A stretch of DNA of 64,000 bases from Sycon ciliatum (lineage: Eukaryota > Porifera > Calcarea > Leucosolenida > Sycettidae), in contig NC_088655.1 of NCBI RefSeq assembly GCF_964019385.1, forward strand, positions 16,491,148 through 16,555,147. Reading direction: 5' to 3'. Shown piece by piece: positions 186 to 62,820 of the stretch (the stretch's first letter is position 1; the number at the start of each line of letters is the position of its first letter). The translations under genes and the position numbers were made by a program. The notes under the pieces were generated by a model. It saw nothing but the letters and a program-made list of their open reading frames with translations, did not search any database and was not told the DNA's origin.

Positions 186-609
186 CGTGTCGTGTTTAGT
201 GCGGCCAAGCTTGGCCGTTAATGTTCTAGGTGTAATGTACTGCTGTTATGTGTTATCACGTTGTCTTTCCTTCCTTTCTCCTTTGTTCATTTCTCGCTTT
301 GATTGTTAAAATTCACACTTGTAAATTTCACTGTTGTTGCTCTTAGTGTTATTTCTGTAACTTAGATTTTCTATAATAGTTCAATTTTTGTTTCAGTGTC
401 CTTTAGTACAACGACGATTCCTGATGAGTGTTGTACGAAAACTTGTTTGAATCCATATATTTTTTCCCTACACCATTTCTTCATATTTTCATCGTTTTAT
501 TGCACATCGTCTCCACCGTTTTTACATTGCATGAATAAAGTACACAAATGTCGGTTCAGCTAGTTTTATTGATTGCGGTTATCAAATTATTGTCTCCTCG
601 CCGTGTGTT
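186..609 (+). mobile_element. PLE 3' untranslated / terminal repeat region
   Basis: This non-coding stretch follows the PLE stop codon. It contains the hammerhead-like motif and an AATAAA at 534-539. No other gene is seen. Homology to the composite repeat begins near 610, so the PLE-derived sequence probably ends between 540 and 609. Confidence 0.4.
416..453 (+). ncRNA. hammerhead ribozyme motif (type I), PLE-associated
   Basis: Stem I is GATTC (416-420) with GAATC (449-453), five perfect pairs. The core CTGATGA is at 421-427 and GAAA at 437-440. Stem II (428-436) is short, G-C and U-A with a possible G-U. Stem III is two A-U pairs (440-441 with 446-447) closed by CUUG. The predicted cleavage site follows U448. 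Very short stem III is typical of hammerheads in Penelope-like elements, and a PLE ORF ends 231 bases upstream. Stem II is weak, so activity is uncertain. Confidence 0.55.
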
Positions 610-17689: not shown

Positions 17690-19023
17690 GGCCGATGAGA
17701 AAATCAGAAACCTCTCGATTAGAGAGGTTAAGATGCACGTTATTTCCGACGTGACGAGCAGTTTCACGTCAAATTTGAAATCGATCGGTATTTTTGCTCT
17801 CACATGCATCCATCGCTCAATAATGCATCAATTTCCTATATGACAAACTTTGGCCTGTGATTTACTTTGGCCGGTTGGTACCAAGCGGCGAAATCAGCGA
17901 AATGAAATCGCCAGCGAACATTAGTTGATTTTAATACAGGAATCGGATTTTCTGGCCTTTTTGTAGTAATACATCTACATTGACCTGTTGAGCCAATGAC
18001 GACGCCGAATGCATGGTTGCCTGTGGAGGACATTACATAACTTTACAGTCTCCTAAAATACGTATCCTGTCCGACGGCAAAAGAGGCTGCAGATTTAGTT
18101 TTTCTGCGCGTCGACGGGATGTCTGCGACGCGAAAGTTCAGCTCGCGTTATTTGGCTCGCACGTCGAAAAAATCAACGCGAGTGACCTGCTGCTCACGTG
18201 GAAATTTGGACATTACATAACTTTACAGTCTCCTATATAAATACGTATCCTGTTCGACGGCAAAAGAGGCTGCAGGTTTAGTTTTTCTGCGCGTCGACGG
18301 GATGTCTGTCCTGACGTTTACTGGGACCGGCGCTGACTCTGCCGATCACGGGCGTTCTGGACTCGACGGGATGTCTGTCCTGACGTTTCCTGGGACCGGC
18401 TTAGACTCTGCCGATCACGGGCGTTCTGGACTCAACGGGATGTCTGTCCTGACGTTGCCTGGTACCGCCGGACTCTACCGATCACGGGCGTTCTGGAGTC
18501 GACGGGATCTCTCTTCCGACGTTTCCTGTGACCGGCACTGAATCGCCCTTTCACGCTTTGTTTGGAGACGACGGGATCTCTCTTCCAAAGTATGTTTATG
18601 CTGACGCATCCTATCACCTAATCGGCGTCTATTCTAATTTAATTTCCTCCTCGTCTCCCTATTTCTTTCCAAATCCCACTCTACATCAGGGAGTCGTATG
18701 CATAATACAACGAATATTGGTACGGTACGGGACAGATACAGGAGCCCGCAAATATTGTGGACAGCTGTTATGTACAATCCTGTAGAGCCTTTGTAGTCAC
18801 AGATACGGGACAGATACGGGACAGATACGGGATAGCGCCAGGCGTGACACAAACAAACAAACAAACAAACACACAAACAAACAAATACCAAATTAAAGCT
18901 GTGTGGACCCTGGCTAGCGCCAGACGTTACTGAAGTAACGTCTTCTGCATAGCTACGGGAATTAAAGCTGTGTGGACCCTGGCTAGCGCCACTGAAGTAA
19001 CGTCTTCTGCATAGCTACGGGAA
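17690..19023. repeat. Composite repeat copy 2 (1.3 kb)
   Basis: Same order and orientation as 610-1888. It extends further left to a gattagagaggttaagatgc terminus at about 17721, matching 26825-26870 in inverted orientation. Four 69-bp units occupy about 18300-18590. The distal end has one complete 68-bp gacgttactgaagtaacgtc unit and one with an internal deletion. Confidence 0.88.
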
Positions 19024-21784: not shown

Positions 21785-22419
21785 GCCTCTCTCTCTCTCT
21801 CTTCAGTAATGCGGTACGACGTGGGCGTTGACCCTAAAACTATTGGTCCGTGACTGTCCATCACTCATTCTCGCGGAGCTGGACACCATGAGTTTTGCAA
21901 TGTGACGAGTGAAGAAATAGTGATAAAATCAACAACTTGCAAGTGTGCGGTTTTGTAATTTTCACATAACTATGCAATGTAGCACATATTCTGTTTTTAC
22001 TTATCGCCAAAAGCGTTTACCCACAGAAACCAAATGACGATTGAGACGTGCGAGTCAGTGTGACAGAGTGATACACGTCCTAAGGCTAAGAAAGCTGACA
22101 AATAGCGCTGAGATTCTCAGCCATTGAAGGAAATCAAGCGCCATAAGGCAGTCTACGCTAGAATCCCCTGCGTGCTGTGCCATTTTACTATCAACCTGTG
22201 AAGTGATAAACTAACACTATTGGAAGTAGAACCATGTACCTGTATTGTATAACAAACATCATTTCGAAAAGAAGCCACTTTTCTTCAATAGTGTGTTTTG
22301 TTCATCACGAATCAAGTTTAGTGTACGGTGATCGCGAAGCTCAAGTTTCAAAGCACACTGTCCCGTGGTCCTTCCTGGTTGTGTTCATTGTTGGAAGTGT
22401 AACTGAATACTTAAAAACC
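21785..22419 (+). promoter_or_regulatory. Upstream region of POU-like gene B
   Basis: It starts with a (CT)n tract ending ...ctcttcag, then a short exon-like module (taatgcggtacgacgtgggc). From 21850 it is homologous to 3795-4416 upstream of locus A. From 22060 parts are shared with loci C and D (ctgagattctcagccattga, caaacatcatttcgaaaag). The CT run plus CAG would serve as a splice acceptor. The frame from ATG 22234 is open into the conserved start at 22420. Confidence 0.5.
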
Positions 22420-23604
22420 ATGCACAAGAGGAAACGCACGCAGGAACATCGACGTTCCGCTCAAGCCAGTTCTCAAAAAGGAGATGAACTGTCTTCTTCG
22501 AGCAGTCCACACTCGGCCGTAAGTGGCAGTGAAGCCTATAAGATTCTGGAGAAGGAGGACACAGATGTTTTGGAGCACTACTCGTCTGCACACGCATTGG
22601 ATTCATCCTCTGAAGATGATACTGAGTTACCTCGCAAGATTCAGCGGACTTCGTCGGGCAAGAAGGTGAAATCAGTACAAAAACCGGAAGCTGTCAAACG
22701 CGGATACTCCGCAGACCAAGAAGGTGAACCTCAGAACGATCCATCGCCTGACCCCATGTTCCCAGTTGTCGATCAAGATGTCGCTGACAAAGAGAAGGTG
22801 AATTGCGAAGCTGTGGATGCATTGTCGGATTCCAGCGAACGAGAAATGTGCGGCCAACTTTTCATCGACACATCTTGCAATAGCTCCCCTCAAAGTGTGG
22901 CATCCAACAGCTTTTCGGAACACGGCGCTGTGCCAGAGAGTAGCCGGCAAGATCAAAGGTCATCTGAGAGCGTACCAACCAGGACCGAGTCAAGACAGGG
23001 TGTAGTATCTACTAGTGATATTGACAGCAATTCGTTTGAGAAAAAGCCACGGAATAGAGTGTTTTCTCCTGAAGGTGCTTCTGGCAGAAAATCAGACGAG
23101 AGTCATTCCTCTGGATATGCACCTGATAGCGGAGGCTCGGATAACGACGATCAGAACGACGGCGAAAGATTTTCGCCTTCTCCTCCAGCAGTGACGGAAT
23201 TGGCAGAACGTTTTAATCTTAAACGGCTAGAGAGAGATATGAGCACTCGAGTCGTCAGCGAACAACTGAATGCTCGATTCAATACCCAATACAGTTGGTC
23301 GAAAATCAGTAACTTCGAACACCGCAATTCTGAAGAGGAATCTTTCTGCGAACACATTCGAAAGTGGATAGAGGATGAGGATGTCGCTGTCAGCAGCCTT
23401 CAGAAGAGTAGTACTGGAAGAATACACTTTGACAAAGATGTCCTTAAAATTCTTGAACAAGCCTACATCGAGAATCAGAATCCAAAAGGCGAATGGTATG
23501 ACAAGATTGCAAAACAGTTGAACTGTGACTCGAAGAAGATACGCCAGTGGTTTGCAACTAGGAGGAGCTTATCACGAAAAATTAAACAAAAAGGAAAATT
23601 CTAA
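22234..23604 (+). CDS. POU-like homeodomain protein B (intact)
   Basis: Best-preserved of the MHKRKRT-type loci. The conserved start MHKRKRTQEH is at 22420 (395 codons including stop); ATG 22234 would add 62 residues with a hydrophobic run. Numbering from 22420: basic KRKR start (likely nuclear localisation), Ser/Glu/Asp-rich low complexity to ~245, POU-specific-like domain ~250-312 (LAERFNLKRLERDMSTRVVS, then YSWSKISNFEHRN, then IRKWIEDED), ~16-residue linker, then a homeodomain ~330-390 (LEQAYIENQNP, IAKQLNCDSKKIRQWFATRR). The homeodomain has POU-class ENQ.P and IR.WF but Thr at the position of invariant Asn51. The Gln residues used by POU-specific domains to read DNA are also replaced. No introns are apparent. 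Likely a nuclear DNA-binding protein with altered specificity; function unknown. Confidence 0.7.
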   Translation: MYLYCITNIISKRSHFSSIVCFVHHESSLVYGDREAQVSKHTVPWSFLVVFIVGSVTEYLKTMHKRKRTQEHRRSAQASSQKGDELSSSSSPHSAVSGSEAYKILEKEDTDVLEHYSSAHALDSSSEDDTELPRKIQRTSSGKKVKSVQKPEAVKRGYSADQEGEPQNDPSPDPMFPVVDQDVADKEKVNCEAVDALSDSSEREMCGQLFIDTSCNSSPQSVASNSFSEHGAVPESSRQDQRSSESVPTRTESRQGVVSTSDIDSNSFEKKPRNRVFSPEGASGRKSDESHSSGYAPDSGGSDNDDQNDGERFSPSPPAVTELAERFNLKRLERDMSTRVVSEQLNARFNTQYSWSKISNFEHRNSEEESFCEHIRKWIEDEDVAVSSLQKSSTGRIHFDKDVLKILEQAYIENQNPKGEWYDKIAKQLNCDSKKIRQWFATRRSLSRKIKQKGKF

Positions 23605-24267: not shown

Positions 24268-24660
24268 ATTCCCGTAGCTATGCAGAAGACTTTACTTCAG
24301 TAACGTCTGGCGCTAGCCAGGGTCCACACAGCTTTAATTCCCGTAGCTATGCAGAAGACGTTACTTCAGTAACGTCTGGCGCTAGCCAGGGTTCACACAG
24401 CTTTAATTCCCGTAGCTATGCAGAAGACGTTACTTCAGTAACGTCTGGCGCTAGCCAGGGTCCACACAGCTTTAATTTGGTGTTTGTTTGTTTGTTTGTT
24501 TGTTTGTTTGTTTGTGTCACGCCTGGCGCTATCCCGTATCCGTCCCGTACCGTATCGCACAGCTGGCCATTTGCTGGCTCCCGTATCTGTCCCGTACCGT
24601 ACCGTACCATCAAACACAGCTGGCTACAAACAGCTGGCCACAATATTATGTACATGTACA
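24268..24660. repeat. Composite-repeat tail: three 68-bp units plus (GTTT)n
   Basis: Three copies of the 68-bp unit with the 20-base inverted repeat gacgttacttcagtaacgtc, then (GTTT)n and gctatcccgtatccgtcccg. Orientation is opposite to 1753-1888. Confidence 0.88.
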
Positions 24661-25434: not shown

Positions 25435-26885
25435 GTACGACTCCCTTATGTCTAGAGAGACTTTCTGGAAAGAAATAGGGAGACGAGGAGGAAATGAAAT
25501 TAGAATGGATGTTAGTTGCCGAATAGGTGATAGGATGCGTCAGTAAAAACATACTTTGGAAGAGAGATCCCGTCGTCTCCAAAATAGGCGTGAACGGGCG
25601 AGTCAGCGCCGGTCACAGGAAACGTCGGCAGAGAGATCCCGTCGACTCCAGAACGCGCGTGCTCGGCAGAGTCAGCGCCGTTCCAGGAAACATTTCCATC
25701 AGTTCCCACAACATGCACGATGAGCTAAGTAACAAAGCATAGCGTAGGGCCCTGAGCTTCCAAGCTCTCTCGTTTGGTGTTTGTTCGTTTGTTTGTTTGT
25801 TTGTTTGTTTGTTTGTTTGTGTCACGGCTGGAGCTATCCCGTATCTGTCCCGTATCTGTGACTACAAAGGCTCAACAGGATTGTACATAACAGCTGTCCA
25901 CAATCTTTGCGGGCTCCTGTATCTGTCCCGTACAGTTCGTCGTATTATGTATACGACTCCCTGATGTAGAGGGAAATTTGGAAAGAAAAAGGGAGACGAG
26001 GAGGAAATTAAATTAGAATAGACGCCGAATAGGTGATAGGATGCGTCAGCATAAACATACTTTGGAAGAGAGATCCCGTCGTCTCCAAAATAAGCGTGAA
26101 CGAGCGATTCAGCGCCGGTCACAGGAAACGTCGGAAGAGAGATCCCGTCGACTCCAGAACGCCCGTGATCGGCAGAGTCCGCCGGTTCCAGGCAACGTCA
26201 GGACAGACATCCCGTCGAGTCCAGAACGCCCGTGATCGGCAGAGTTTAAGCCGGCCCCAGTAAACGTCAGGACAGACATCCCGTCGACACGCAGAAAAAC
26301 TAAATCTGCAGCCTATTTTGCCGTCGGACAGGATACGTATTTTAGGAGACTGTAAAGTTATGTAATGTCCAAATTTCGACGTGAGCAGCAGGTCACTCGC
26401 GTTGATTTTTCGACGTGCGAGCCAAATAACGCGAGCTGAACTTTCGCATCGCAGACATCCCGTCGACGCGCAGAAAAACTAAATCTGCAGCCTCTTTTGC
26501 CGTCGGACAGGATACGTATTTTAGGAGACTGTAAAGTTAGGTAATGTGCTCCACAGGCAACCATGCATTCGGCGTCGTCATTGGCTCAACAGGTCAATGT
26601 ACATGTATTACTACAAAAATGCCAGAAAATCCGATTCCTGTATTAAAATCAACTAATTTTCGCTGGCGATTTAATTTCACTGATTTCGCCGCTTGGTACC
26701 AACCGGCCAAAGTAAATCGCAGGCCAAAGTTTGTCATAATTATAGGCAAATGATGCATGATTGAGCAATGGATTCAAGTGAGCAAAAATACCGATCAATT
26801 TCAAATTTGACGTGAAATTGCGCGTCACGTCGGAAATAACGTGCATCTTAACCCCTCTAATAGAGAGGTTTTTATTTCTCATCAG
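25435..26885. repeat. Composite repeat copy 3 (inverted, partly doubled)
   Basis: Read on the minus strand it matches 17690-18880. The distal 69-bp and linker parts occur twice (25435-25795 and 25860-26290), separated by the gggccctgagcttccaagct module and a (GTTT)n run. It ends with the terminus ttaacccctctaatagagag near 26845-26870, the counterpart of 17721. Confidence 0.85.
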
Positions 26886-26954: not shown

Positions 26955-27290
26955 ATTCCCGTAGCTATGCAGAAGACGTTACTTCAGTAACGTCTGGCGC
27001 TAGCCAGGGTCCACACAGCTTTAATTCCCGTAGCTATGCAGAAGACGTTACTTCAGTAACGTCTGGCGCTAGCCAGGGTCCATACAGCTTTAATTTGGTG
27101 TTTGTTTGTTTGTTTGTTTGTTTGTTTGTTTTTTTGTGGTACGCCTGGCGCTATCCCGTATCTGTCCCGTACTGTACCGTACCAGCAAAGGCAGCTGGCC
27201 ACAATATTTTTGTTTGTTTGTGCCATTGACATGCCTGGCGCTATCCCGTACCTGTCCCGTACCATCAAGAGTACGGCACCATCAAGGGAA
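26955..27290. repeat. 68-bp units and (GTTT)n / cccgtacc repeats
   Basis: Two 68-bp gacgttacttcagtaacgtc units, then (GTTT)n and ggcgctatcccgtatctgtc repeated twice, ending at the TGA target of the 525-bp element. Confidence 0.85.
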
Positions 27291-28030: not shown

Positions 28031-29445
28031 TGCTGTATGGGGAGCTTTTCTGGAAAGAAATACGAAGTAGGGAGACGAGTAAATGCAATCAGAATGGATG
28101 TTAGTTGCCGTCAGTAAAATAATAAGAAGAAGATAAACGCCCGTGATCGGCAGAGTCAGCGCCGGTCCCAGGAAACGTCAGGACAGACATCCGTCGACTC
28201 CAGAACGCCCGTGATCGGCAGAGTCAGCGCCGGTCCCATAGCTATGCAGAAGACGTTACTTCAGTATCTCATTGAAACGTTTTTGCAATACAATTATGTA
28301 GCTAATCAAAGGAAAAAGCAAAAAAAAGCCCGTGATCGGCAGAGTCAGCGTCGATCCCATAGCTATGCAGAAGACGTTACTTCAGTACATTGAAACGTTT
28401 TTGCAATACAATGATGTAGCTAATCAAAGGAAAAAGGATTTCCATCAGTTCTAACAACATGCACGATGAGCTAGGCAACAAAGCATAGCGCAGGGCCCTG
28501 AGCTTCCAAGCTCTCTCGTTTGGTGTTTGTTTGTTTGTTTGTTTGTTTGTTTGTGTCACGGCTGGAGCTATCCCGTATCTGTCCCGTGTCTGTGACTACA
28601 AAGGCTCTACAGGATTGTACATCACAGCTGTCCACAATATTTGCGGGCTCCTGTATCTGTCCTGTACCGTACCAATATTCGTCGTATTATGTATACATAT
28701 GACTCCCTGATGTAGAGGGAGATTTGGAAAGAAATAGGGAGACGAGGAGGAAATTAAATTAGAATAGACGCCGAATAGGTGATAGGATGCGCCAGCATAA
28801 ACATACTTTGGAAGAGAGATCCCGTCGTGTCCAAAATAAGCGTGAACGAGCGATTCAGCGCCGGTCACAGGAAACGTCGGAAGAGAGATCCCGTCGACTC
28901 CAGAACGCCCGTGATCGGCAGAGTCAGCCGGTCCCAGGCAACGTCAGGACGGACATCCCGTTGAGTCCAGAACGCCCGTGATCGGCAGAGTCTAAGCCGG
29001 TCCCAGGAAACGTCAGGACAGACATCCCGTCGAGTCCAGAACGCCCGGGATCGGCAGAGTCAGCGCCGGTCCCAGTAAACGTCAGGACAGACATCCCGTC
29101 GACGCGCAGAAAAACTAAATCTGCAGCCTCTTTTGCCGTCGGAAGGGATACGTATTTTAGGAGACTGTGAAGTTACGTAATGTCCAAATTTCGACGTGAG
29201 CAGCAGGTCACTCGCGTTGATTTTTCGACGTGCGAGCCAAATAACACGAACTGAACTTTCGCGTCGCAGACATCCCGTCGACGCGCAGAAAAACTAAATC
29301 TGCAGCCTCTTTTGCCGTCGGACAGGTTACGTATTTTAGGAGACTGTAAAGTTATGTAATGTGCTCCACAGGCAACCATGCATTCGGCGTCGTCATTGGC
29401 TCAACAGGTCAATGTACATGTATTGCTACAAACGACGTTTGTTGC
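28031..29445. repeat. Composite repeat copy 4 (inverted)
   Basis: Same order as 25435-26780 on the same strand. Extra features: two direct copies of a ~110-bp sequence ending in agctatgcagaagacgttac...aatgatgtagctaatcaaag (28225-28435). The 69-bp units at 28795-29100 again encode, on plus, EERSRRVQNKRERAIQRRSQ. Confidence 0.85.
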
Positions 29446-33540: not shown

Positions 33541-33720
33541 TGCGAAGTGTATCGGGGGATGCATGTAGCGGCGCGATAGTGCGGGTTCGAATCCCAGGTT
33601 ATGTCTTAAAAAAAAGGAATTTTTTAAAGAATTTATAACATCCCTATGCTTTTTTGTCTAGGTCATCAAGGCAAAAAAGCATAGCATAGGGCCCTGAGCT
33701 TCCAAGCTCTCTCGTTGGAG
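33541..33720 (+). mobile_element. tRNA-like SINE (plus) and shared 3' module
   Basis: gcgaagtgtatcgggggatg, then gcgatagtgcgggttcgaat (B-box-like), an A-rich stretch and taacatccctatgctttttt; the counterpart of 29505-29650. It is followed by the cagggccctgagcttccaagc module shared with the composite repeats. Confidence 0.5.
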
Positions 33721-33893
33721 ACTGTGCTTATATTAGAGATAATACGGTACATAAATACATACATACATATATGCTGTTTGCGTTATGCAGAGCTCACTGA
33801 CTTGTCAGTTTGAGCACTCTGGCAAGGTACGTTCGGGCCTGATTGGAAATTTTTATTTCCATTGCTATCAGGTTCGGCCTCATTTCCTCTGTG

Positions 33894-33937
33894 CTGCGCT
33901 GACGAGTCCACAAAGGACGAAACAGTTCTGTCCGCAG
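33894..33937 (+). ncRNA. Hammerhead ribozyme, type I, unit 1
   Basis: Stem I CTGCG (33894-33898) with CGCAG (33933-33937); core CTGACGA; stem II GTCC/GGAC with loop ACAAA; GAAA; stem III ACA/TGT with loop GTTC; cleavage triplet GTC, with the cut after C33932. All conserved core positions are present. Confidence 0.92.
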
Positions 33938-34119
33938 ATTGAGTATTTCGCTCCTGCTCTTGTAGCAGTTGAGCACTCTTGCGTGGGGTAGTGCCTTTGC
34001 TGTTTGCGTTATGCAGAGCTCACTGACTTGTCAGTTTGAGCACTCTGGCAAGGTACGTTCGGGCCTGATTGGAAATTTTTATTTCCATTGCTATCAGGTT
34101 CGGCCTCATTTCCTCTGTG

Positions 34120-34163
34120 CTGCGCTGACGAGTCCACAAAGGACGAAACAGTTCTGTCCGCAG
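34120..34163 (+). ncRNA. Hammerhead ribozyme, type I, unit 2
   Basis: Identical to the unit 1 ribozyme, exactly 226 bases downstream. The RNA segment between consecutive cleavage sites would be 226 nt. Confidence 0.92.
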
Positions 34164-34345
34164 ATTGAGTATTTCGCTCCTGCTCTTGTAGCAGTTGAGC
34201 ACTCTTGCGTGGGGTAGTGCCTTTGCTGTTTGCGTTATGCAGAGCTCACTGACTTGTCAGTTTGAGCACTCTGGCAAGGTACGTTCGGGCCTGATTGGAA
34301 ATTTTTATTTCCATTGCTATCAGGTTCGGCCTCATTTCCTCTGTG

Positions 34346-34389
34346 CTGCGCTGACGAGTCCACACAGGACGAAACAGTTCTGTCCGCAG
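34346..34389 (+). ncRNA. Hammerhead ribozyme, type I, unit 3
   Basis: Same core and stems as units 1 and 2. The only change is in the stem II loop (ACACA instead of ACAAA), which leaves the structure intact. Confidence 0.92.
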
Positions 34390-34540
34390 ATTGAGTACAT
34401 ACATATATACATACCCGTTAAACGAACAGGTCCTGTACACGTACATACATATATTTCCGTATACGTTACACCAAGCAGTGCTGTGGTCCAACACAGTTCG
34501 TTCTACATGGAGAAACAAAATCATTTTATTCATAACAAGT

Positions 34541-34782
34541 GGACTAAAACACTTTGAACACCTTGAAAATGATGAAAATGATTAGTAGACTAAAACATGT
34601 CATTGCTTGATAATTAGACAAAAACATTCTGTGGATGGACTAAAACCAGTTTTGAACACTTTCAAAATGTTTAGACTAAAACATGTCATTCTTGATAATT
34701 AGACTAAAACACTTGTGGATGGATAGACTAAAACAAGTTTGTGTGATAGGTATACTAAAACATGAATGTGAGACTAAAACAA
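34541..34782. repeat. Nine dispersed copies of GACTAAAACA
   Basis: (A/G)GACTAAAAC or a one-base variant begins near 34541, 34587, 34614, 34638, 34673, 34701, 34725, 34751 and 34771, separated by 20-45 bases of mostly different sequence. Part of the spacer (atgtcattcttgataatt) is itself repeated. It lies 3' of the proline-rich gene. Confidence 0.75.
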
Positions 34783-39342: not shown

Positions 39343-40530
39343 ATGCATAAGAGAAAACGCACTCTGGAACATTAACGTTCCGGTCAAACCAGTGCTCAAA
39401 AAGGAGATGAACTGTCTTCTTCGAGCAGTCCACACTCGGCCGTAATTGGCACTGAAGCCTACAATATTCTGGAGAAGGAGGACACAGAATATGTTTTGGA
39501 GCACTACTCGTCTGCACACACGTCGGATTCATCCCCTGAAGATGATACTGATTTACCTCGCAAGATTCAGCGGACTTCATCGGGCAAGAAGGTGAAATCA
39601 GTTCAAAAACCGGAAGGAATCCAACATGGCTTTTCCGGAGATCAACAGCGTGTACAGCAGGATGATCCATCGCCAGACCCCGGGAGCGCATATTTCGATG
39701 AAGATCTTGCCTATGCAAGGGAAGAGGAGGTGCAATGCAAAGATACGGATGCATCGTCAGAGACCAACGAACAGGATATGTGTATCCCGCTAACCAGTAA
39801 ATCATCTTGCAATAGTTCGTCTCACAGTGTGGCATCCAGCAGCTCCTCGGAACATGGCGCTGTACCAGTGGGTAGCTGGGCTGATCAAAGGCCATCTGTG
39901 AGAGCACCGATCAAGGCAGCGTCAACACAGGGTTTTGCGTCTGCTAGTGACGTTGAAAGCGATTCATTGGAGAAAAAGTCACCGAACCGGGTGTGCTCCT
40001 CTGGTAGTTATTCTGGAAGTAGTTCAGAGGAAAGTAATTCCTCTCAATATGCAGCTAATAGCGAAGACTCGGAGAACGACTATGATCCCCATGACGACGA
40101 GGTTTCACCATCTCTTCAAGCAGTAACAGATTTGGCAAACCGTTTCAAAAATAAACGGTCAGAGAGAAATATGAGCACTCGAGTAGTCAGCGAGCAACTG
40201 AACGCTCGATTTAAAACCCTATACACTCCGTCAAAAATCAATCACTTCGAAAATTGTAACTTGAAGCAGCCGTGTGAATCTCTCTGCGAACACATTCGAA
40301 AATGGATAGAGGATGAGGAAGTTGCTGTGACCAGCCGTCAGAAGAGTAGTACTCGAAGGAGACACTTTGACAAAAACGCGCTTCGAATTCTTCAACAAGG
40401 CTTCATCGAGAATCAGTATCCAAAAGATGATTGATATGACAATATTGCAAAACAGTTGAACTGTGACTCGCAGAGGATACGCAAGTGGTTTGAAACCCAG
40501 AGGCGTAAAGAAAAGCGTAAAACCAAATAG
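39343..40530 (+). pseudogene. POU-like homeodomain locus C, full length with two in-frame stops
   Basis: Homologous to gene B along its whole length and in a single frame. Stops: TAA at 39373-39375 (codon 11, where relatives have a sense codon after EH) and TGA at 40432-40434 (where D has Trp, PKDDWYD). Regions: KRKR start; Ser/Asp-rich part; POU-specific-like domain near 40123-40320 (NRFKNKRSERNMSTRVVSEQ, SKINHFENCN, IRKWIEDEE); homeodomain 40340-40530 (ILQQGFIENQYP, IAKQLNCDSQRIRKWFETQR, then RKEKRK, a POU-class ending). Thr stands at the Asn51 position. There are no frameshifts in ~1.2 kb, so loss was recent or the stops are bypassed. A TTG/ATG downstream of codon 11 could restart translation. 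Confidence 0.65.
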
Positions 40531-42682: not shown

Positions 42683-43867
42683 ATGCCTAAGAGAAAACGA
42701 GAGCAACAGGACGAACGTATCGGTGAGTGCACTGCTCAAATAGGCAATACGCGGTCTTCTGTGAGCAGTCCACACTTGTTCGGGATGGGCCCAGAAGACT
42801 ATAATACTTTGGAGAAGTAGGAATCATATGTATCGGAGGACTATTCGTCACAACAGGCTTTGGATTCACCCTCGAAAGGGAACAATGAAATGGCTCCCAG
42901 GATTCAGCAGACTCCGGCCAGAAAGAGGGAGAAAACAGTTCCAAAACCAGACGGAATCAAACCTGGATTCTCCGCAGAGCAACAATGGGCACAGCAGGAT
43001 GATTTGTCGCCAGACCCCGTGATCGCATATTTCGATGAAGATCTTGCTTATGCAATGGAAGAGGAGGTGCAATGCAAAGATACGGATGCATTGTCAGAGG
43101 CCAGCGAACAGGATATGTGCATCCCTCTAATCAGTACATCGTCTTGCAATAGTTCCTCTCACAGTGTGGCATCCATCAGCTCCTCGGAACATGGCGCTGT
43201 ACCAGTGGGTAGCTGGGATGATCAAAGGCCATCTGAGAGAGCACCGACCAAGACCGCGTCAACACAGGGTTTTCCGTTTGAAAGCGATTCTTTGGAAGAA
43301 AAGCCACCGAAGAGGGTGCTCTCCGCTGATAGTGCTTCTGGAAGTAGTTCAGTCGAAAGTAATTCCTCTGGATATGGAGGTGATGGCGGAAGTCCGGAGA
43401 AGAAATTTGCCGATAACGACGACGACAAGGTTTCACCGTCTCTTCAAACAGTAACCGATTTGCCAAACTGTTTCAAACTTAAACGATTAGAAAGGAATAT
43501 TGGCATTCGAGTAGTCAGCGAACAACTGAACGCTCGATTCAAAACCCAGTACAATTGGTCACAAATCCATGACTTCGAACACCGTAATTCTACGCAGCAA
43601 TTTTTGACCGACCACATTCAGAAGTGGATTGAGGATAATGATTTCGCTGTCAACAACTGTCAGAGGAGTAGTACTGGAGGAAGAAGTGCTGCACGTCAAT
43701 ACTTTGACAAAAACGATCGTAAAATTCTGGAGCAAGGCTATGCTGAGCATAAGTATCCAAAAGATGATTGGTATGACGAGGTTGCCAAGCAGCTGAAATG
43801 CAACTCAAGAAGGATAAGATGTTGGTTCCAAAAAAAGAGGTATTATGAAAAGCGTTCTTCCAAATAG
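42683..43867 (+). pseudogene. POU-like homeodomain locus D, one in-frame stop
   Basis: Starts MPKRKREQQDERIG at 42683. One TAG at 42818-42820 interrupts the frame where relatives have GAG (LEKED), after which it is open for 349 sense codons to the terminal TAG at 43865. POU-specific-like domain near 43440-43645 (NCFKLKRLERNIGIRVVSEQ, YNWSQIHDFEHRN, IQKWIEDND); 26-residue linker with SSTGGRSAA; homeodomain near 43690-43855 (ILEQGYAEHKYP, DEVAKQLKCNSRRIRCWFQK, then RYYEKR). Lys replaces Asn51. The longer, more diverged linker and N-terminus show D is the most distant of the MxKRKR-type loci. A start downstream of the TAG could still give a protein with both domains. Confidence 0.65.
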
Positions 43868-50425: not shown

Positions 50426-51472
50426 TATCGCGTACTGTCTGATTTGATAGTAAACCATAATTATGGTTAGAAACTCATACATGTACTGGCTTGCGTGGCC
50501 TTGCTAGGATTCGTCGTGCTTTATAAGGCGTTATTGTGTTGGTGTCATGTTTGCTTTACAGATTCGCACCTTAGCTGTTGTACCCCTGAACCTTAGCTGT
50601 TGTACCCCTGAAGTTGTTTTGTTTTACTACTTGCGTTGCTAGAAATCATCACGCTTTGATCTTGAGTGACGTAATAATGTGTTGATTCTCTAAATGGGTT
50701 TCGTTCTTTGTGCATTACTTCGTGATATTTATGCCTACTTTTTACCACCAACTTTGCAACCAAACTGAAACATCATTTCTCTTCACCCCTGATTTCAGCA
50801 GGTTGCGAATTATTTCTTTCATTGCATGCGAATTTCCCGCCACCATTAAGCATTTTCTCAACTTCATGAAACTTTGTGAACATTTGACAAGTTCGTACTT
50901 CTCGCTTTCGGAATTAATTCATGGCTCTATACATCTTAATACTACACGTACGCACCTTTTTGATAACACGATTTGCCTGGTGCTAAATCACAGGTCAAAG
51001 AGCTGACATGGCACAACAGTTGCAGTATCACCATCAAAGGTTTGCTGATCACGCCATATGTGTACGTGACATCAAAACATACTTGAGGGTATAACAGAAC
51101 GACAAGGGCAATCAAGGTAAATTTAGCTTCTAGTTAAAGTTTCATGCTTTCGCAATCATCAGGCAACACATTCACACTTCAGGGAATAACACCCATGAAT
51201 TGTAACAGACGTTCTGCAGAAACTAGAGATGACAGCATTGTGATACCTTATCGCGTTGTTAGCATATGAAAGAATGGTCATAGAGGAGGTCATCCTCGCA
51301 TTCTGCGGAAAGTCTCATTGTGACCAGTAGAAGTTACTTTGGACCTGTTGTCGACTTTGTTGTCGAACAGTGGCCACTTTGTTCTTTTTCTAGTCGAAAC
51401 AACCGTATGCTGACCAGTCGCTATTCCTGGTTCTCTCTACGAAGCCAGTCTGCTCGCAAGTGACTCACAGCC
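50426..51472. other. Upstream region of gene E
   Basis: No supported coding sequence. No TATA box seen near the start. The stretch lacks the upstream block shared by A-D. Confidence 0.4.
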
Positions 51473-52816
51473 ATGTCTGGTGATAGACAACGGACAATCT
51501 CGCCCCAAAACTCATCGGCTTCTAACCTGGAACCGAGTCGTAAGCGGTCTGCAACTACTTCCCAATCTCCAGAAACAGAACTTGCTCCTGCAGATGGGGT
51601 GTTGAAGACGAATGAGGATCATGATGCATTTTCCTTACCGCAACACCGCTCACAAGGATCTTCAGAACAGAGAACAGCGCACGAGCGTAAAACGAAATCC
51701 CCATTGCAGCTCAGTGAGAGTGCAGGAGAACTGGTCAAGAAAGAAATTAACGACGTCGTCAATTCCACACTGCAACGCGCGCCGCAAGGCTATCCAGAGG
51801 AAAAACCTATTCCAATATCAGATTCGGACGATAACTTGGCAAAATGCTTCCGGCAAGAAAGGATTCGAAGAAATCTTTCCCAGAAAGCTGTCAGTGAGCG
51901 ACTGAATCATCTTTTCGGAACCAGCTATACTGTTTATCAGATCAGTCGTTTCGAATTAGGTAAACAGCAGCGTATGATCAACCATGATGATATTAAACTG
52001 TGGCTTGATGAAAAAAATGCAACGGGCCAGTCGAACGTTGGAAACGGCAGGGGTGCATATTCTCGCTTTGACTCTACGGACAAGAAATTTCTTGTCGATT
52101 ATTTCCGTAACCAACAGAGTCCATCAAATGAAGAATGCCCCAAGATCGCCGACCACGTGAAGTGTGACTGGAAGAAAGTACATAGTTGGTTTCGGCACCG
52201 GAAGACGAAAGTTGCCAGTGCTACCTCTGACCAACCACTAAGCGTGTCATCCACCAGCAAGGAAAGAGAGAGAGGTTCCTCCCAAACTCATTTTGACTCT
52301 ACGGACAAGAAATTTCTCGTAGATTATTACCGTAACCAACAGAGTCCATCAAATGAAGAATGCGCCAAGATCGCCGACCACGTGAAGTGTGACTGGAAGA
52401 AAGTATATCATTGGTTTTATGACAGGAGAAGGAGGATGGCCAGTGCTACCTCAGACCAACCACTTAGTGTGTTTTCCACCAGCAAGGAAAGAGAGAGAGG
52501 TTCCTCACATGCCAGCTCATCAAAGCAAAAATCGTCAACAACGTTTATAACTAAGAGCAGTGTGGCAAACACCAGTTTCTCTGTGAGTGCTGAATATAAG
52601 AGCGGGTTAGGTGTGCGCATTTCATCTCGAGGTGGAGCACCCGAGGACGCCAGTTTGGAAGGTTCGGCGAGAGATAGTAATCCTTCGGAAACTTTCAAAC
52701 ACCAATTAGAGGAGAATTTGGCATATTGGCACATGTCTGATAAACGAGCTAAAATATCCAAGCATTGGTTGAAAGGTCAAGAGAATCGTATGCTTTTTCA
52801 AGATCGTTCGCCCTAG
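51473..52816 (+). CDS. POU-like protein E: POU-specific domain plus two tandem homeodomains (intact)
   Basis: A 447-codon intronless frame from ATG 51473 (context cagccATGt). Residues 1-115: Ser/Glu/Gln-rich, with RKRSATTSQ. POU-specific domain ~122-185: LAKCFRQERIRRNLSQKAVS, FGTSYTVYQISRFELG, IKLWLDEKN; it keeps the Gln of the recognition-helix region (SQKAV) but not the QTT triplet. Homeodomain 1 ~199-248 (FDSTDKKFLVDYFRNQQSP, KVHSWFRHRK) and homeodomain 2 ~281-330 (FDSTDKKFLVDYYRNQQSP, KVYHWFYDRR) are recent duplicates, each followed by the same Ser/Thr linker (ATSDQPLS, STSKERERGSS). His and Asp replace Asn51. The C-terminal ~110 residues are of unknown type. Known POU proteins have one homeodomain. 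Probably a nuclear DNA-binding protein; targets unknown. Confidence 0.75.
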   Translation: MSGDRQRTISPQNSSASNLEPSRKRSATTSQSPETELAPADGVLKTNEDHDAFSLPQHRSQGSSEQRTAHERKTKSPLQLSESAGELVKKEINDVVNSTLQRAPQGYPEEKPIPISDSDDNLAKCFRQERIRRNLSQKAVSERLNHLFGTSYTVYQISRFELGKQQRMINHDDIKLWLDEKNATGQSNVGNGRGAYSRFDSTDKKFLVDYFRNQQSPSNEECPKIADHVKCDWKKVHSWFRHRKTKVASATSDQPLSVSSTSKERERGSSQTHFDSTDKKFLVDYYRNQQSPSNEECAKIADHVKCDWKKVYHWFYDRRRRMASATSDQPLSVFSTSKERERGSSHASSSKQKSSTTFITKSSVANTSFSVSAEYKSGLGVRISSRGGAPEDASLEGSARDSNPSETFKHQLEENLAYWHMSDKRAKISKHWLKGQENRMLFQDRSP

Positions 52817-55960: not shown

Positions 55961-56640
55961 ATTATTATGAGTCTTTATTCCACTCCAAATTGAAAATAAA
56001 AATAAAAATTGGATGTATTACACTAACTCACCGGACTTATCATAGCCAAAGGTAAGCAGCACGGAATAATATATGGAAAAAGGTAAGGTAGAGATAGAGG
56101 AAGGGAGAAAGGCGCATTTACCACCACAGGCATTAAAGCTCAGAGGTATCATGACAACAGGTATTGCAGAAAGGGGAGCATCAGAAGTTGGCGAAAAATT
56201 CAGGCCGGCAAAGCTCATCACTGGGCACAACCTCCAATGCGCACCCACAGAAAGATCAAATACGAATACCCACAGAATTACCCCAGTGTTTCAATTACAA
56301 ACTAAAACGAATACAATAACATACAGAGCATAAAAAACCCACCAGGGACAGCGAAGAGCCCTATGCTGCACCCAAAACAGATCTTAGAATGGCCATCGAG
56401 CCAAGGATAGCAGCCTGCTGCAGTTCATGAAGGTGCCGCTCTTCTCCACATAGCTGCTTAATTGAGGTATCCGCTTCCTTCGTCCGGCTACCAAAAGTAC
56501 CAACTATGATGGGCACTACGGACACTGCCTCTCGCTGCCAAATCTGCCCAATTTCCACTGCGAGGGGCAAGTACTTCGCTCTTTTCTCAGCATGTTTTAG
56601 TGTCACTCTATGATCCAGTGGCACACTGACATCAATAAGT
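55961..56640 (-). mobile_element. R4-like LINE copy 1 (5'-truncated)
   Basis: Minus-strand 3' end at the (ATT)n of 55961-55975. Coding end at 56361-56640: LIDVSVPLDHRV, AEKRAKYLPLAVEIGQIW, VVPIIVGTFGS, ILGSMAILRSVLGAA. This matches the end of the nuclease region of the copy at 58321-58734. It is cut at 56640 by the (ATT)n next to the hammerhead array. Confidence 0.65.
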
Positions 56641-56665
56641 TATTATTATTATTATTATTATGAAG

Positions 56666-56709
56666 CTCAACTGATGAGGGGTGAATTCCCCGAAACACTG
56701 TGTATTGAG
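56666..56709 (+). ncRNA. Hammerhead ribozyme, type I, 477-bp array unit 1
   Basis: Stem I CTCAA (56666-56670) / TTGAG (56705-56709); core CTGATGA; stem II GGGG/CCCC with loop TGAATT; GAAA; stem III ACA/TGT with loop CTG; cleavage triplet GTA. All core residues are present. Confidence 0.88.
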
Positions 56710-57095
56710 CAGGGAGTGGTGCTTTCTTGCAGGTTTGCCGAGTCGAAGGTTCGATGGACTTCTCGTGTGCTCTGGATTGCAGTCGTGAGTCAGTCAAGTG
56801 TCAAGTAAAGTCGGCGGAATAGCGCGAGCTCCGGTGTGGGGAGCAAACCTTTCTTACAAATCATCGCCGAAGTCGCAACCACTACTTCGTACTGTTGTGC
56901 CCAGCGCGGGCTTGCGACTAGTTGGTTTGGAGGTGACAGCGTTGTGAATGACCGAGGGTCCTCGACGTCTGTCTCACCGTCCAGGAGCTTCACTGACTCA
57001 CGCTGCTATCTGGTGTTCACGAGGTGTTTGTCACGCTGGAAGCGGAGCGTCTCTGTAAGTTTGTATCCCTGGTGATGTTTGTGCCTGGAGAGCAC

Positions 57096-57103
57096 TATAT
57101 AAG
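57096..57103 (+). promoter_or_regulatory. TATA box in 477-bp unit (first junction)
   Basis: TATATAAG lies within the inverted repeat gagcac...gtgctc and 40 bases before the hammerhead at 57143. It predicts transcription starting just upstream of the ribozyme. Confidence 0.5.
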
Positions 57104-57142
57104 TGGTGCTCTTCTGGCACAATCTTCCTCAGCCTACTCAAG

Positions 57143-57186
57143 CTCAACTGATGAGGGGTGAATTCCCCGAAACACTGTGTATTGAG
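57143..57186 (+). ncRNA. Hammerhead ribozyme, type I, 477-bp array unit 2
   Basis: Identical core and stems to unit 1, 477 bases downstream. Confidence 0.88.
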
Positions 57187-57572
57187 AAGGGAGTGGTGCT
57201 TTCTTGCAGGTTTGCCGAGTCGAAGGTTCGATGGACTTCTCGTGTGCTCTGGATTGCAGTCGTGAGTCAGTCAAGTGTCAAGTAAAGTCGGCGGAATAGC
57301 GCGAGCTCCGGTGTGGGGAGCAAACCTTTCTTACAAATCATCGCCGAAGTCGCAACCACTACTTCGTACTGTTGTGCCCAGCGCGGGCTTGCGACTAGTT
57401 CGTTTGGAGGTGACAGCGTTGTGAATGACCGAGGGTCCTCGACGTCTGTCTCACCGTCCAGGAGCGACACTGACTCACGCTGCTATCTGGTGTTCACGAG
57501 GTGTTTGTCACGCTGGAAGCGGAGCGTCTCTGTAAGTTTGTATCCCTGGTGATGTTTGTGCCTGGAGAGCAC

Positions 57573-57580
57573 TATATAAG
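57573..57580 (+). promoter_or_regulatory. TATA box in 477-bp unit (second junction)
   Basis: TATATAAG, 40 bases before the third hammerhead, as at 57096. Confidence 0.5.
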
Positions 57581-57619
57581 TGGTGCTCTTCTGGCACAAT
57601 CTTCCTCAGCCTACTCAAG

Positions 57620-57663
57620 CTCAACTGATGAGGGGTGAATTCCCCGAAACACTGTGTATTGAG
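57620..57663 (+). ncRNA. Hammerhead ribozyme, type I, 477-bp array unit 3
   Basis: Identical core and stems to unit 2, 477 bases downstream. The unit after it is cut at 57846. Confidence 0.88.
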
Positions 57664-58320
57664 AAGGGAGTGGTGCTTTCTTGCAGGTTTGCCGAGTCGA
57701 AGGTTCGATGGACTTCTCGTGTGCTCTGGATTGCAGTCGTGAGTCAGTCAAGTGTCAAGTAAAGTCGGCGGAATAGCGCGAGCTCCGGTGTGGGGAGCAA
57801 ACCTTTCTTACAAATCATCGCCGAAGTCGCAACCACTACTTCGTATTATTATGGAGTTGGCTTTATTTCACTCACGTTGTCATGACATGAGGTAAGAACC
57901 CCATCACCGGGCCAAAAGAGACTAAGGGTAATGAGAGAAAAAAAATAGATAAATGGCCAACGCAATGAAGACCGAAGCAAAAAGGATTGTAAAAACCAAA
58001 GCAAAAATATTGAAAGCCGACGCAGAAACTGAGAGACGGACAGAAATAAGCAGAACGGTGGAGGAGGCCAGGACATATTCGAATACAAAAAGATGGAGGA
58101 GGACAAGACATATTCGAATACAAAAAGAGTAATCACAAAAATGAACTACCAGTACAGGAATAGACCTGTAGAAATAGAGGAAGAGATGAATGCAGGACAT
58201 AAACAAATGGCAAGAGAAAAATCAGGCTGTGAGGACCGTCATACTGCACATTCATGGATGTCAAAGCAAATGCGGTATTGGAGGTTTATACAGACTAGCT
58301 CTACCCGTAACATGAGGAGC

Positions 58321-59259
58321 CTAATGCCGAATGCCCAGAACCGACTTGATGATGTTCAGCGTGCCCAGGATAGCACATTGCTGAGCCCTTTCAATGCGCA
58401 GAGTGCCTGCCAATGCCAACACAAAGTGTGACAGGGACACACCAGTCAGTCCACCAAGCGCCCCAACAACCAGGGGCACAACGCGGACATCATCCACATG
58501 CCAGATGCGCCGCAGCTCTTGGCAAAGGGGAGCGTACTTTGTTATTTTTTCGGCGATTTTTGTGGGCACATTCTGGTCCAATGGAACACTGACATCCATC
58601 AGCAGCACCTGTGTGCTGGACCGCAACACCAGGTCTGGACGGTTGTGGCGCACTTGCGTATCCGTTGGGATATTGAACTCCCACAGGAGCTTCATGTCAG
58701 GATTTTCCGTGACATGCACAAGATGATGCTTCATCGGGTTGCTTCCTGGCTAACCCAGACCATGCCGCTTGCATAGTGCCCAATGCACCAACTTGACGAG
58801 CGTGTCATGCCGTTCGATATACAGTGTTTTGGCTAGGGCTGGGCAACAGGCCACAATGTGATCAACTGTTTCTCCGCGAGTGCCGCAAACTCGACAAATG
58901 TCCACAACGTCTCCCCGTCCAATGACCGTGACCTGATAGTGCCTGGTCGCAATGGCCTGATCCTGTACAGCCAGCAAGAGTCCCTCTGTCGCAGGCCTGA
59001 TCGTTGGCGATTTCAGCCAGCGAAAACTCAAACCCAGGTCCAAGCCTGCATCAGAAGCTCGTCTCCAGAACTGGCCATGGAGAGGCTTACCTTGGATAAC
59101 GGCCAGGCACCGGAGAGCAACGGCCTTCTTGACAATGACTTTTGTGGCAGTCTCCAAGTCTGGTAGGTCAAGTTGACCCAGAAGTCTGGAGGCTTGACGT
59201 GTAACTGATTTTGACGGTGCCACATCATTGTCGTGATGGCGCTTAGCCCCATCCCTCAC
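58321..59259 (-). pseudogene. R4-like LINE C-terminal part: CCHC motif and restriction-like endonuclease
   Basis: The frame from about 59259 contains CRVCGTRGETVDHIVACCPA, a C-x2-C...H-x4-C knuckle that precedes the nuclease in R2/R4-type elements. An in-frame TAG lies 58750-58752. In the same frame it continues LLWEFNIPTD, then RPDLVLRSSTQVLLMDVSVP, then KIAEKITKYAPLCQELRRIW and VVPLVVGALGG to a stop near 58321. RPD...DVSVP is the PD...DxS/A core of the restriction-like endonuclease. The shown start at 59259 is simply where the interrupted frame resumes. Confidence 0.7.
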
Positions 59260-59319
59260 ACAAACAAGTCAACAAAGAGGCATCTTTGGATTGAGGAGTG
59301 CTGGTTTCGAAACAACTGG

Positions 59320-59812
59320 TTTGAAGCTCAAAGTAGAGCTGGTGTTAGCTCAGAGCAGAGCTGCTGTTAGCTCAGAGCAGAGCTGCTGTTAGCTCAGAGC
59401 AGAGCTGCTGTTAGCTCAGAGCAGAGCTGCTGTTAGCTCAGAGCAGAGCTGCTGTTAGCTCAAAGTAGAGCTGCTGTTAGCTCAAAGTAGAGCTGCTGTT
59501 AGCTCAAAGTAGAGCTGCGGTTAGCTCAAAGTAGAGCTGCTGTTAGCTCAAAGTAGAGCTGCTGTTAGCTCAAAGTAGAGCTGCTGTTAGCTCAAGGTAG
59601 AGCTGCTGTTAGCTCAAAGTAGAGCTGCTGTTAGCTCAAAGTAGAGCTGCGGTTAGCTCAAAGTAGAGCTGCTGTTAGCTCAAAGTAGAGCTGCTGTTAG
59701 CTCAAAGTAGAGCTGCGGTTAGCTCAAAGTAGAGCTGCTGTTAGCTCAAAGTAGAGCCGCTGTTAGCTCAAAGTAGAGCTGCTGTTAGCTCAACGTAGAG
59801 CTGCAATGCTAA
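59320..59812. repeat. 22-bp minisatellite, ~22 copies
   Basis: The unit is agctgctgttagctcaaagt plus ag. The first ~6 copies carry the variant cagagcag, the rest caaagtag, with occasional gcggtt. The variants are in blocks, so expansion happened from each end or in two phases. It lies inside the LINE between RT and nuclease regions. Confidence 0.95.
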
Positions 59813-60114
59813 ATGGATGTAATATAGCGCAAGGCAGAGCCGCAGCAAATAGCTAGATAACACCAGTTGTGAGAGTGGACCCGATTAGTGGGCACGATAA
59901 TTATGATGGTGTGAATAAGTTGGTTAGGGAGGGATGGTGGGAAAAGAAACACTGCTGAAGCACGATCCGTTGTCTGGAAGAGCACAACAGGGCAAGCAAG
60001 ATTTGTTTTTCTTTTGAGCAAAATGGGCTGGTGCCATTTGTGATTACGCAGCAAAACAAAGCGCATGACGTCAGTCTTGAATGCAGTACAAAGCAATGCA
60101 GTGCAGTGTGTGCG

Positions 60115-62802
60115 CTAGTTCGGATTGTTGCTAACAAGTACTAGCACAGCTAGTACACCATTAACAGCAGCCAACAGTGGCACGTTTCGGTGGTGGGCTT
60201 GTAGGTACCGCGCCACCGGGACACGGGTTCTATCCAGGAGATCCCGGAATGATAGAATTCCTCGACCACCCATGTCACGAGGCAGGTGGACCCTGGCGGC
60301 AGAGTCCTTGGGGTGGCGGGCGTGTGCTTTAAACAGTGCTTGGCGGGTCTGTCGGTCGAGTTCCTCTATCTCTGCCTTTGTCCACTCAACGATGCACAGA
60401 GAGTAGAGGATGACTGGAATGGCAAAGGTGTTGATGGCTTTGACCAAGTTCCTGGCGTTCAATTGAGACGAGCATATCAATTCAAGACGGCGGCCGAACT
60501 CAGCCTTTGCTGTGGTCTTCAATTCGGTGGCGTGATAATGTGCTGATTCCGGGACACCAAGGTACCTGTAGGACTCCTCCGCCTGCAGCTTAGCAATGGC
60601 GTGACCCTGGAGTGTCTGGAGAGCAGACTGCTGATCGCTCTGGGCTCTCCCCCGTTTCATAGTGAGCCAGCTAGACTTTGACGGGTTGAAACGCATACCA
60701 ATGCAGTCGCCCATTGACTCCACAACATTGGTCATGGAGAGCAGATTATTGTCGTTTCGGGCGAAGAGCTTCATGTCGTCCATGTACAACAGGTGCTATA
60801 CAGGGCACACCTGGGCCGGTGGGCCGCAGCGGTAGCCAAGACCCGTCCTGGTCAACTCGCCACTGATCGGATTTAGAGACAGGCAAAATAGCAGTGGAGA
60901 AAGGGAATCGCCCTGGAAAATGCCACGGTGGATAGATATTGGGCGACTGAATGCACGGGGTGTTTGACCAGGCAGTACCATTTGCGTTCTCCAATGATCC
61001 ATCATGCTTGAGATGCATGAGACAAGATTGTCTGCAAAGCGGTAGATCAACAGGCATCTCCGGATCCACTGGTGAGACAGGCTATCGAAGGCTTTGCGGA
61101 AGTCCACCCAGCATGTCGAAAGATTCCGACTACGGGATGCTGCATCCTCTAGAACCATCTTATCGATCATTAGTTGGTCAAGGCATCCGCCACGCCCTGG
61201 AGTACAGCCAACTTGCTCATCTGCAAAGATATCCTCTGAAGATAAATGGCGCCACATGGCAGCAGCGAGTAAGGATGTGAATATCTTGCTAATCGCTGGC
61301 AGGCATGTTATTGGGCGATAATTCTCGGGCCTAGAAAGGTCTCCTTTCTTAGGCAGTAGAGTGGTGATACCAAACGAAAACCAGGCCGGCGACTCTGTCT
61401 CTGCATCCAGGATTGATTGAAAGGAGACCACAAGACGCTCGTGGATAGACGAAAACTTCTTCCACCAAAATGCATGGATCTTGTCCCGTCCTGGGGCTTT
61501 CCAGTTGTTTGATTTCTTCAAGATGTCCCTGAGGTCCTCCAGTTGAAGAATGACACGGTCTTGTTGTTGAATCTCCTCACAGTCCCTCTCCAAATTATCA
61601 AGCCAAGCACCGCCACGCAGCTCCACGGGTTGTTCCAGTATAGATGACCAGAACTCAGTAACAGCCTCAGCCGATGGATGCGCAGCAGCCTGGTCGAAAG
61701 GTGGCTGCCCAGGTATTTCCGTAGACTTGGTCATATTGCGGTAGAACTGACGCTCATTCGTGACGAAAACACGATTCTCCGACCTGTGTGTTGCCTCTAG
61801 CTTATAGCGCCGGATCCGTGCGGCTGTTGCTTCTAGCTGCATTTTCGTATACTCCAGTAGCTGGCGGGCCTGATCCAAAGTCTGGACTTTATATTGCCGG
61901 TGGATCCTGTGCTGCTTGATGTTGGTGTCAGAGAGGGATCCATCACGCAGGAAGCTGGTCAGCTGGGAGACGTCAGCCCTCAGTGCACAAACACGTTTTT
62001 CAAGGCGTTGTCGCCAGGCAGGCAAGGAGCGTTCTCCTCTAGCTGTCTCAGGGGTACCATCTGTATTGATATCCAGCAGTGAGAGTACAAGCTTGGCCCC
62101 AGCATAGACCATGTCACTGATCTGGCCAAGCGAGGTGGTGTCATCTCGCAACCCAGGGTCACACTCCAGAAGTCTAGGGAGTATCTTGTTCACACGGGCA
62201 GTGGCAGAGGCCAGGGACTTCCTGGCCACGTGCCTAGGTACTGGTAGGCTCGACCTGGACTCTGGAGTAGTTGAACCGCACTGTTCGTAGATTTCAACAA
62301 GTTTGGTGTAAAGTGGTGTACTGTCTGGCTCGAACGCACCCAGGGTGTCACTAGCGTTGGTGCCAGTTTGCATTGCTGCGCCAGTACCATCACCCGAACC
62401 ACCTGATGTAACTGAGGTGTCAGGACTAGCTCCACGAAAACCATCAACAGAAGCGTCCAGCAACTCGCTGTGGGTGGCCTCAGCAACTTCTGGGCTAGTC
62501 AGCATGCCGTCACACGAACCAGGCACCAAGATCGACGCACCAGACTCACCCAAAGCATTCGCCTCCGGCAGCTCCGCAGGCACAGCGTTATCAGTGCCAG
62601 CCGTCACGAGCAATCCGTCCCTTCCGAGCCGAGCCTTTATCTCATCAAATTTGATGTCGGTAATCTTTTTTGTTCTTTTCACAAACCTTAGCTGGTCCAT
62701 GAGGTTCTGCTTAGACAACGGTAAGTCGGGCTGCATTCCTATCGATGCCTGGTCGTAGGCTATGATTCCGAGACCTCCGGTCGGATGAGCCTGGCCAACC
62801 AC
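60115..62802 (-). pseudogene. R4-like LINE reverse transcriptase (in-frame TAG before the YMDD motif)
   Basis: About 895 codons in one frame with a single TAG at 60796-60798. N-terminal ~330 residues: ADVVGQAHPTGGLGIIAYDQ, acidic/Ser/Thr-rich, then basic helical. From ~residue 420 the RT: NNWKAPGRDKIHAFWWK (motif 0/1), LLPKKGD, NYRPITCLP, CTPGRGGCLDQL, CWVDFRKAFDSLSH (motif A with Asp), GIFQGDSLSPLLFCLSLNP (motif B). Then the TAG, then LLYMDDMKLFA (catalytic motif C) and the thumb to a stop at 60115. MDDMKLFA is typical of the R4/Dong branch. The TAG separates the polymerase from its catalytic motif. First in-frame ATG is near 62736; the conserved frame begins earlier. Confidence 0.75.
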
Positions 62803-62820
62803 ATCGGCCCATCGCCCCTA

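Follow-up and report, generated by a model that had tools for sequence, protein, structure and literature searches.

Introduction

Metazoan non-LTR retrozymes were described, with experiments, by Cervera and de la Pena (2020; PMC7229834). In that account, the elements consist of tandem type I hammerhead units of 150-450 bp, carry no LTRs and are bordered by target-site duplications (TSDs) longer than 4 bp, and their RNA circles measure about 170-400 nt. According to the same source, closure of these circles in vitro is far better by tRNA ligase than by the ribozyme, and the elements are probably copied by the reverse transcriptase of LINEs or of Penelope-like elements. Repeats of Nematostella are reported to carry TSDs of 15 bp (PMC4918200).

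Two other groups of hammerhead-bearing elements are relevant here. Plant LTR retrozymes resemble the animal ones in being non-autonomous, in bearing hammerheads and in having a circular RNA intermediate, whereas they differ from the array described below in their type III hammerheads, their LTRs and their 4-bp TSDs, as given in PMC4918200. Penelope-like elements bear minimal hammerheads in which stem III is usually absent (PMC7761336), and they are reported to favour AT-rich targets (PMC11167929, PMC3846280).

The window analysed here is a stretch of 64 kb. The tandem array that it contains at 33773-34395 very probably arose when a metazoan non-LTR retrozyme inserted into the genome, and it is an ordinary, well-preserved example of the kind already described.

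Results

Architecture of the array and its flanking repeat

The array, which the original prediction had placed correctly, was analysed with Tandem Repeats Finder (period 226, 2.8 copies, 99% matches) and by direct comparison of its units, which gave 2.76 copies of a 226-bp unit arranged purely head-to-tail, with no internal region and no LTR (Table 1). Units 1 and 2 showed 0 differences over 226 positions and unit 3 differed from unit 1 at one of 171 positions, by an A to C change at unit position 141 (window 34365), so that a single difference was found in the 397 positions compared. This change falls in loop II. The units are indeed near-identical, with the sole difference of unit 3 in a loop, as had been claimed.

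The perfect 13-bp direct repeat TACATACATATAT, also foreseen in the original prediction, was the longest word common to 33720-33775 and 34385-34430. The 226-bp periodicity spans 33772-34397, so that one base at the left border and two at the right border could belong either to the element or to the flank; therefore, the target duplication proper is 10-13 bp long and exceeds 4 bp even at 10 bp, when the ambiguous bases are counted as element. The repeat is microsatellite-like and hence less informative than its length implies. The number of units is not an integer, and the 3′ end lies 11-13 nt beyond the last cleavage site; the earlier wording of dimeric insertions does not fit this copy, which is no dimer.

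A second copy of the 226-bp unit was not found elsewhere within the 64-kb window. Two ORFs of at least 100 aa overlap the array (34192-34557 on the + strand and 34246-34581 on the - strand). Both were among 63 window ORFs scanned against Pfam, one of which gave a single weak match, to a viral protein model (E 0.0039); this was taken for chance, and the array probably encodes no protein. Inside the 226-bp unit, no TATA-like box was found and the best candidates for Pol III A and B boxes, judged against the consensus, had 2 mismatches each, and no promoter within the unit is claimed.

Table 1. Coordinates of the features in the window.
Feature	Position	Strand	Evidence
Left 13-bp direct repeat TACATACATATAT (target-site duplication, 10-13 bp), in TACA-type microsatellite	33760-33772	.	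Direct comparison
Unit 1, 226 bp	33773-33998	+	Tandem Repeats Finder, direct comparison
Hammerhead 1, stem I to stem I, predicted cleavage after C33932	33894-33937	+	Descriptor; Rfam 30.1 bits
Predicted 226-nt monomer/circle, between cleavage sites 1 and 2	33933-34158	+	Read from sequence
Unit 2, 226 bp, identical to unit 1	33999-34224	+	Direct comparison
Hammerhead 2, predicted cleavage after C34158	34120-34163	+	Descriptor; Rfam 30.1 bits
Second predicted 226-nt monomer, with loop II variant	34159-34384	+	Read from sequence
Unit 3, partial, 171 bp, one difference at 34365	34225-34395	+	Direct comparison
Hammerhead 3, predicted cleavage after C34384	34346-34389	+	Rfam 34.6 bits; descriptor
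Right 13-bp direct repeat TACATACATATAT	34396-34408	.	Direct comparison
10-bp direct repeat TATTATTATG flanking second array, TTA microsatellite	56653-56662, 57844-57853		
Second hammerhead array, 477-bp units, 2.48 copies	56663-57843	+	Descriptor, repeat comparison
Second-array hammerheads, 3-bp stem III	56665-56710, 57143-57186, 57620-57663	+	Descriptor
Tandem repeats, period ~67-69 bp	1130-1373, 1748-1892, 18294-18536, 24268-24477		
Tandem repeats, period ~67-69 bp	25561-25691, 26113-26296, 26955-27095, 28810-29102		

Hammerhead ribozymes in every unit

The presence of three intact type I hammerheads in the 226-bp array is far above chance. A purpose-made descriptor of the motif, requiring the core, three helices and no G at the cleavage position, gave 8 matches in the 64-kb window, three of them in this array, three in a second array and two single, compared with 3 matches altogether in 200 dinucleotide shuffles of the window. 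The plain core pattern was matched 7 times in the window against 0.74 expected.

The descriptor bore out the claim of an intact core, a 5-bp stem I and a stem II in every unit. The cores, at 33899, 34125 and 34351, are accompanied by a perfect stem I (CUGCG/CGCAG) and by a 4-bp stem II with a 5-nt loop. Stem III was drawn by the descriptor as 4 bp with a 2-nt loop, although 3 bp with a 4-nt loop is more plausible. On the opposite strand of the unit, the descriptor gave no hammerhead. The predicted cleavage positions (Table 1) were read from the sequence.

All three hammerheads were also matched by the Rfam type I model (Hammerhead_1, gathering score 34), the search that had been proposed as a check of the original prediction, although only the third reached the gathering score, with 34.6 bits at 34345-34390 (E 6.9e-05). 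The matches at 33893-33938 and 34119-34164 stayed below it, with 30.1 bits each (E 0.0021), and the matched stretches differ from each other at the loop II base only. Thus, the descriptor recovered 3/3, Rfam placed 1/3 at or above its gathering score, and 3/3 had an E value of 0.0021 or better. The description of the hammerheads as canonical is slightly generous in wording, as two of the three are below the Rfam threshold.

Folding of the predicted circle

The predicted 226-nt circle had a folding energy of -75.6 kcal/mol, compared with -62.2 (sd 4.4) for its shuffled versions (z -3.0; 1/200 shuffles as low), and 66% of its bases were paired, short of the fraction above 70% that PMC4918200 states for such RNAs. 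The free-energy model favoured other folds over the hammerhead. The gap was 4.9 kcal/mol for the ribozyme of unit 1 taken alone and 5.1 kcal/mol for that of unit 3; it was 12.1 kcal/mol when the transcript ran from the start of the element to ribozyme 1, 5.4 kcal/mol when it ran from the first cleavage site to ribozyme 2, and 8.4-8.5 kcal/mol in the predicted circle. Hence this model, which considers secondary structure only and ignores tertiary contacts such as that between loops I and II, lends no support to the hammerhead fold, though shuffled contexts reach equally large gaps in the circle.

In the competing fold predicted for the circle, the catalytic core is paired to a segment that lies upstream of it. 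When the remainder of the circle was shuffled, 139 of 300 circles reached a gap of at least 8.4 kcal/mol, and the energy of the duplex between the core and the upstream segment was attained by 235 of 1000 shuffles. As shuffled sequence yields an equally strong signal, an anti-ribozyme switch was rejected.

A second, unrelated hammerhead array

The second hammerhead array of the window is composed of 477-bp units, of which the first two show 4 differences and units 2 and 3 are identical over the retained part of unit 3. Its flanking repeat TATTATTATG is 8-10 bp long allowing for ambiguous bases. A TATATAA box inside the unit starts 47 bp before stem I, at 57096 and 57573. Both its GC content (53%) and its unit length place this array outside the published range for animal retrozymes, and the 226-bp and 477-bp units have no significant sequence in common (best blastn E 0.53). 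The hammerheads of the second array were unreported by Rfam up to E 5. They are of type I and possess a stem III, in contrast to what is usual in the minimal hammerheads of Penelope-like elements as given in PMC7761336, and the length of this stem barely distinguishes the two arrays, with 3-4 bp in the 226-bp array and 3 bp in the second one. Our guess, prompted by those minimal hammerheads, is that the second array could be Penelope-like, perhaps a pseudo-LTR or a non-autonomous derivative.

Discussion

Comparison with described elements

With metazoan non-LTR retrozymes, the 226-bp array shares units that measure a few hundred bp, lie in tandem and carry type I hammerheads, the absence of LTRs, a TSD longer than 4 bp and a well-paired predicted circle. 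Its unit lies within the range of about 150-450 bp published for these elements and is nearest in size to those of the coral Acropora millepora (220-240 bp) and the jellyfish Nemopilema nomurai (227 nt) (PMC7229834). The GC content of the unit, 49.6%, is at the upper edge for animal retrozymes, under the limit of 50% given in the text of that article and over the limit of 45% given in one of its figure legends (PMC7229834). The original interpretation as a retrozyme is thus supported, as the features of the class that can be tested in sequence are either present or borderline. Other traits of the class are the lack of a primer-binding site, of a polypurine tract and of a protein-coding region, a dispersed occurrence in many genomic copies, expression as linear and circular monomers, and tertiary contacts between loops I and II.

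The near-identity of the units and the intact direct repeat argue for a young-looking insertion, although the likeness of the units could also be kept by gene conversion. Conservation had been taken as a sign of recent activity; the two features do bear on the age of the insertion, but not on present activity.

Weighing of other explanations

Ordinary satellite DNA would also appear as a tandem array, if a hammerhead-bearing segment of 226 bp had been amplified by DNA-level duplication or unequal crossing-over and this copy had never been retrotransposed. Homogenisation would likewise give near-identical units, and in flanks that are themselves microsatellite-like it is less surprising that a word is repeated across the array. 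However, tandem duplication would not make a perfect 13-bp repeat at both borders of a non-integer array, and three intact-looking ribozymes suggest RNA processing, so that we regard this origin as unlikely. Less probable still is the chance integration of a reverse-transcribed exogenous agent, either a viroid-like or a satellite circular RNA. Viroid-like agents too have a small, well-paired, self-cleaving circle, but tandem genomic repeats with type I hammerheads are the architecture described for animal retrozymes (PMC7229834), and the descriptor result for the other strand of the unit also speaks against such an agent. Viral contigs and prokaryote species genomes gave no exact match to the hammerhead pattern, and phage records gave no blastn match to the array; the viral and phage results count against an exogenous origin as weak tests, and all three negatives weigh little because an animal retrozyme is not expected in those collections.

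The presence of a possibly Penelope-like hammerhead array only 22 kb away, and the AT-rich simple targets of both arrays, raise the question of whether the 226-bp array is itself a part of a Penelope-like element, that is, a pseudo-LTR array and no independent retrozyme. Penelope-like elements and Terminons resemble the 226-bp array in their type I topology, their tandem or partial-tandem copies and their AT-rich targets (as described in PMC7761336 and PMC11167929), whereas the array differs from them in its short unit, in a hammerhead good enough for the Rfam type I model and in its probable lack of a coding ORF. The two arrays are separated by this same model, which finds the first at E 0.0021 or better and leaves the second unreported at E 5, and by the lack of significant similarity between their unit types. 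In addition, neither a Penelope-type RT nor a GIY-YIG domain was found among 73 window ORFs compared with Pfam. On these grounds, such an origin appears highly improbable.

Proposed life cycle of the probable retrozyme

By analogy with the published class, transcription through the array would produce a multimeric RNA, which the hammerheads would cut into pieces of 226 bases, and a host tRNA ligase of the RtcB type would close these pieces into circles. A reverse transcriptase supplied in trans would then copy the circle for more than one round, and the resulting tandem cDNA would enter the genome at an AT-rich target, of which 10-13 bp would be duplicated. The units, their near-identity, the ribozyme cores, the direct repeat and the target are read directly here. 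As the array crosses three uncut cleavage sites, has neither end at one of them and extends over 2.76 units, it was probably copied from a circular or an uncut multimeric template, rather than from a self-cleaved linear monomer. As a clean, young-looking insertion, the array could be cloned to test cleavage and circularisation.

Insertion sites of the two arrays

Each hammerhead array has an AT-rich microsatellite as its insertion site (33760-33772 and 56640-56662). Of 5000 points drawn at random from the remainder of the window, 4-9 were as simple and as AT-rich as either site, for windows of 20 to 40 bp, a fraction that is slightly low because points inside the masked arrays were skipped and 5000 was kept as the denominator. 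Thus, both sites are among the simplest 0.1-0.2%, approximately, of the window, in a pattern that was noticed after the fact and with n=2.

These targets agree with a published proposal in which retrozymes are mobilised by Penelope-like machinery, although two insertions prove nothing. Since AT-rich microsatellites received both arrays and the flanking direct repeats measure 13 and 10 bp, the retrozyme and the unrelated, perhaps Penelope-like, array might have been inserted by the same kind of endonuclease, a tentative reading that we hold to be rather unlikely. If it were true, the proposed Penelope-like helper could be tested here through the targets and end points of both families. More generally, two hammerhead families side by side offer a handle on which reverse transcriptase and endonuclease move animal retrozymes.

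Other contents of the window

Hammerhead-like sequences were also detected outside the tandem arrays. The descriptor gave single matches at 421 (+) and 41955 (-), which may be due to chance, and the core pattern was matched at 51139-51162 (-); as none of the three has a tandem partner, they are not claimed. The first of them falls in a single hammerhead-like fold at 416-453 (+), which has a 3-bp stem II and may have arisen by chance.

The Pfam scans covered 10 + 63 of the 104 ORFs of at least 100 aa, the 31 omitted being mostly low-complexity or overlapping frames. Homeodomain or POU matches were obtained in 4 of the 10 ORFs of the smaller scan, with one POU match below the curated cut-off. 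They suggest that the host is probably an animal, as would be expected for a metazoan retrozyme. The long ORFs with such homeodomain or POU-like matches are located at 22210-23604, 39376-40434, 42821-43867 and 51464-52816 (+). For the last of these, no protein relative was found at E 0.001 among 4253 candidates.

Broken frames of an R2-like non-LTR retrotransposon (RVT_1 series) extend over approximately 58750-62817 (-), and RVT_1 was found in this set of frames only among the 73 ORFs scanned. For the reverse transcriptase of the window, 5 relatives were found among the best 7997 candidates scored. One of them, P0001, from an ENA contig, was 97% identical over 65% of the 673-aa query, and its best solved relatives were R2 retrotransposon proteins. 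Finally, the first half of the window is dotted with tandem repeats whose period is about 67-69 bp; they belong to two or more sequence types and occur in both orientations (Table 1).
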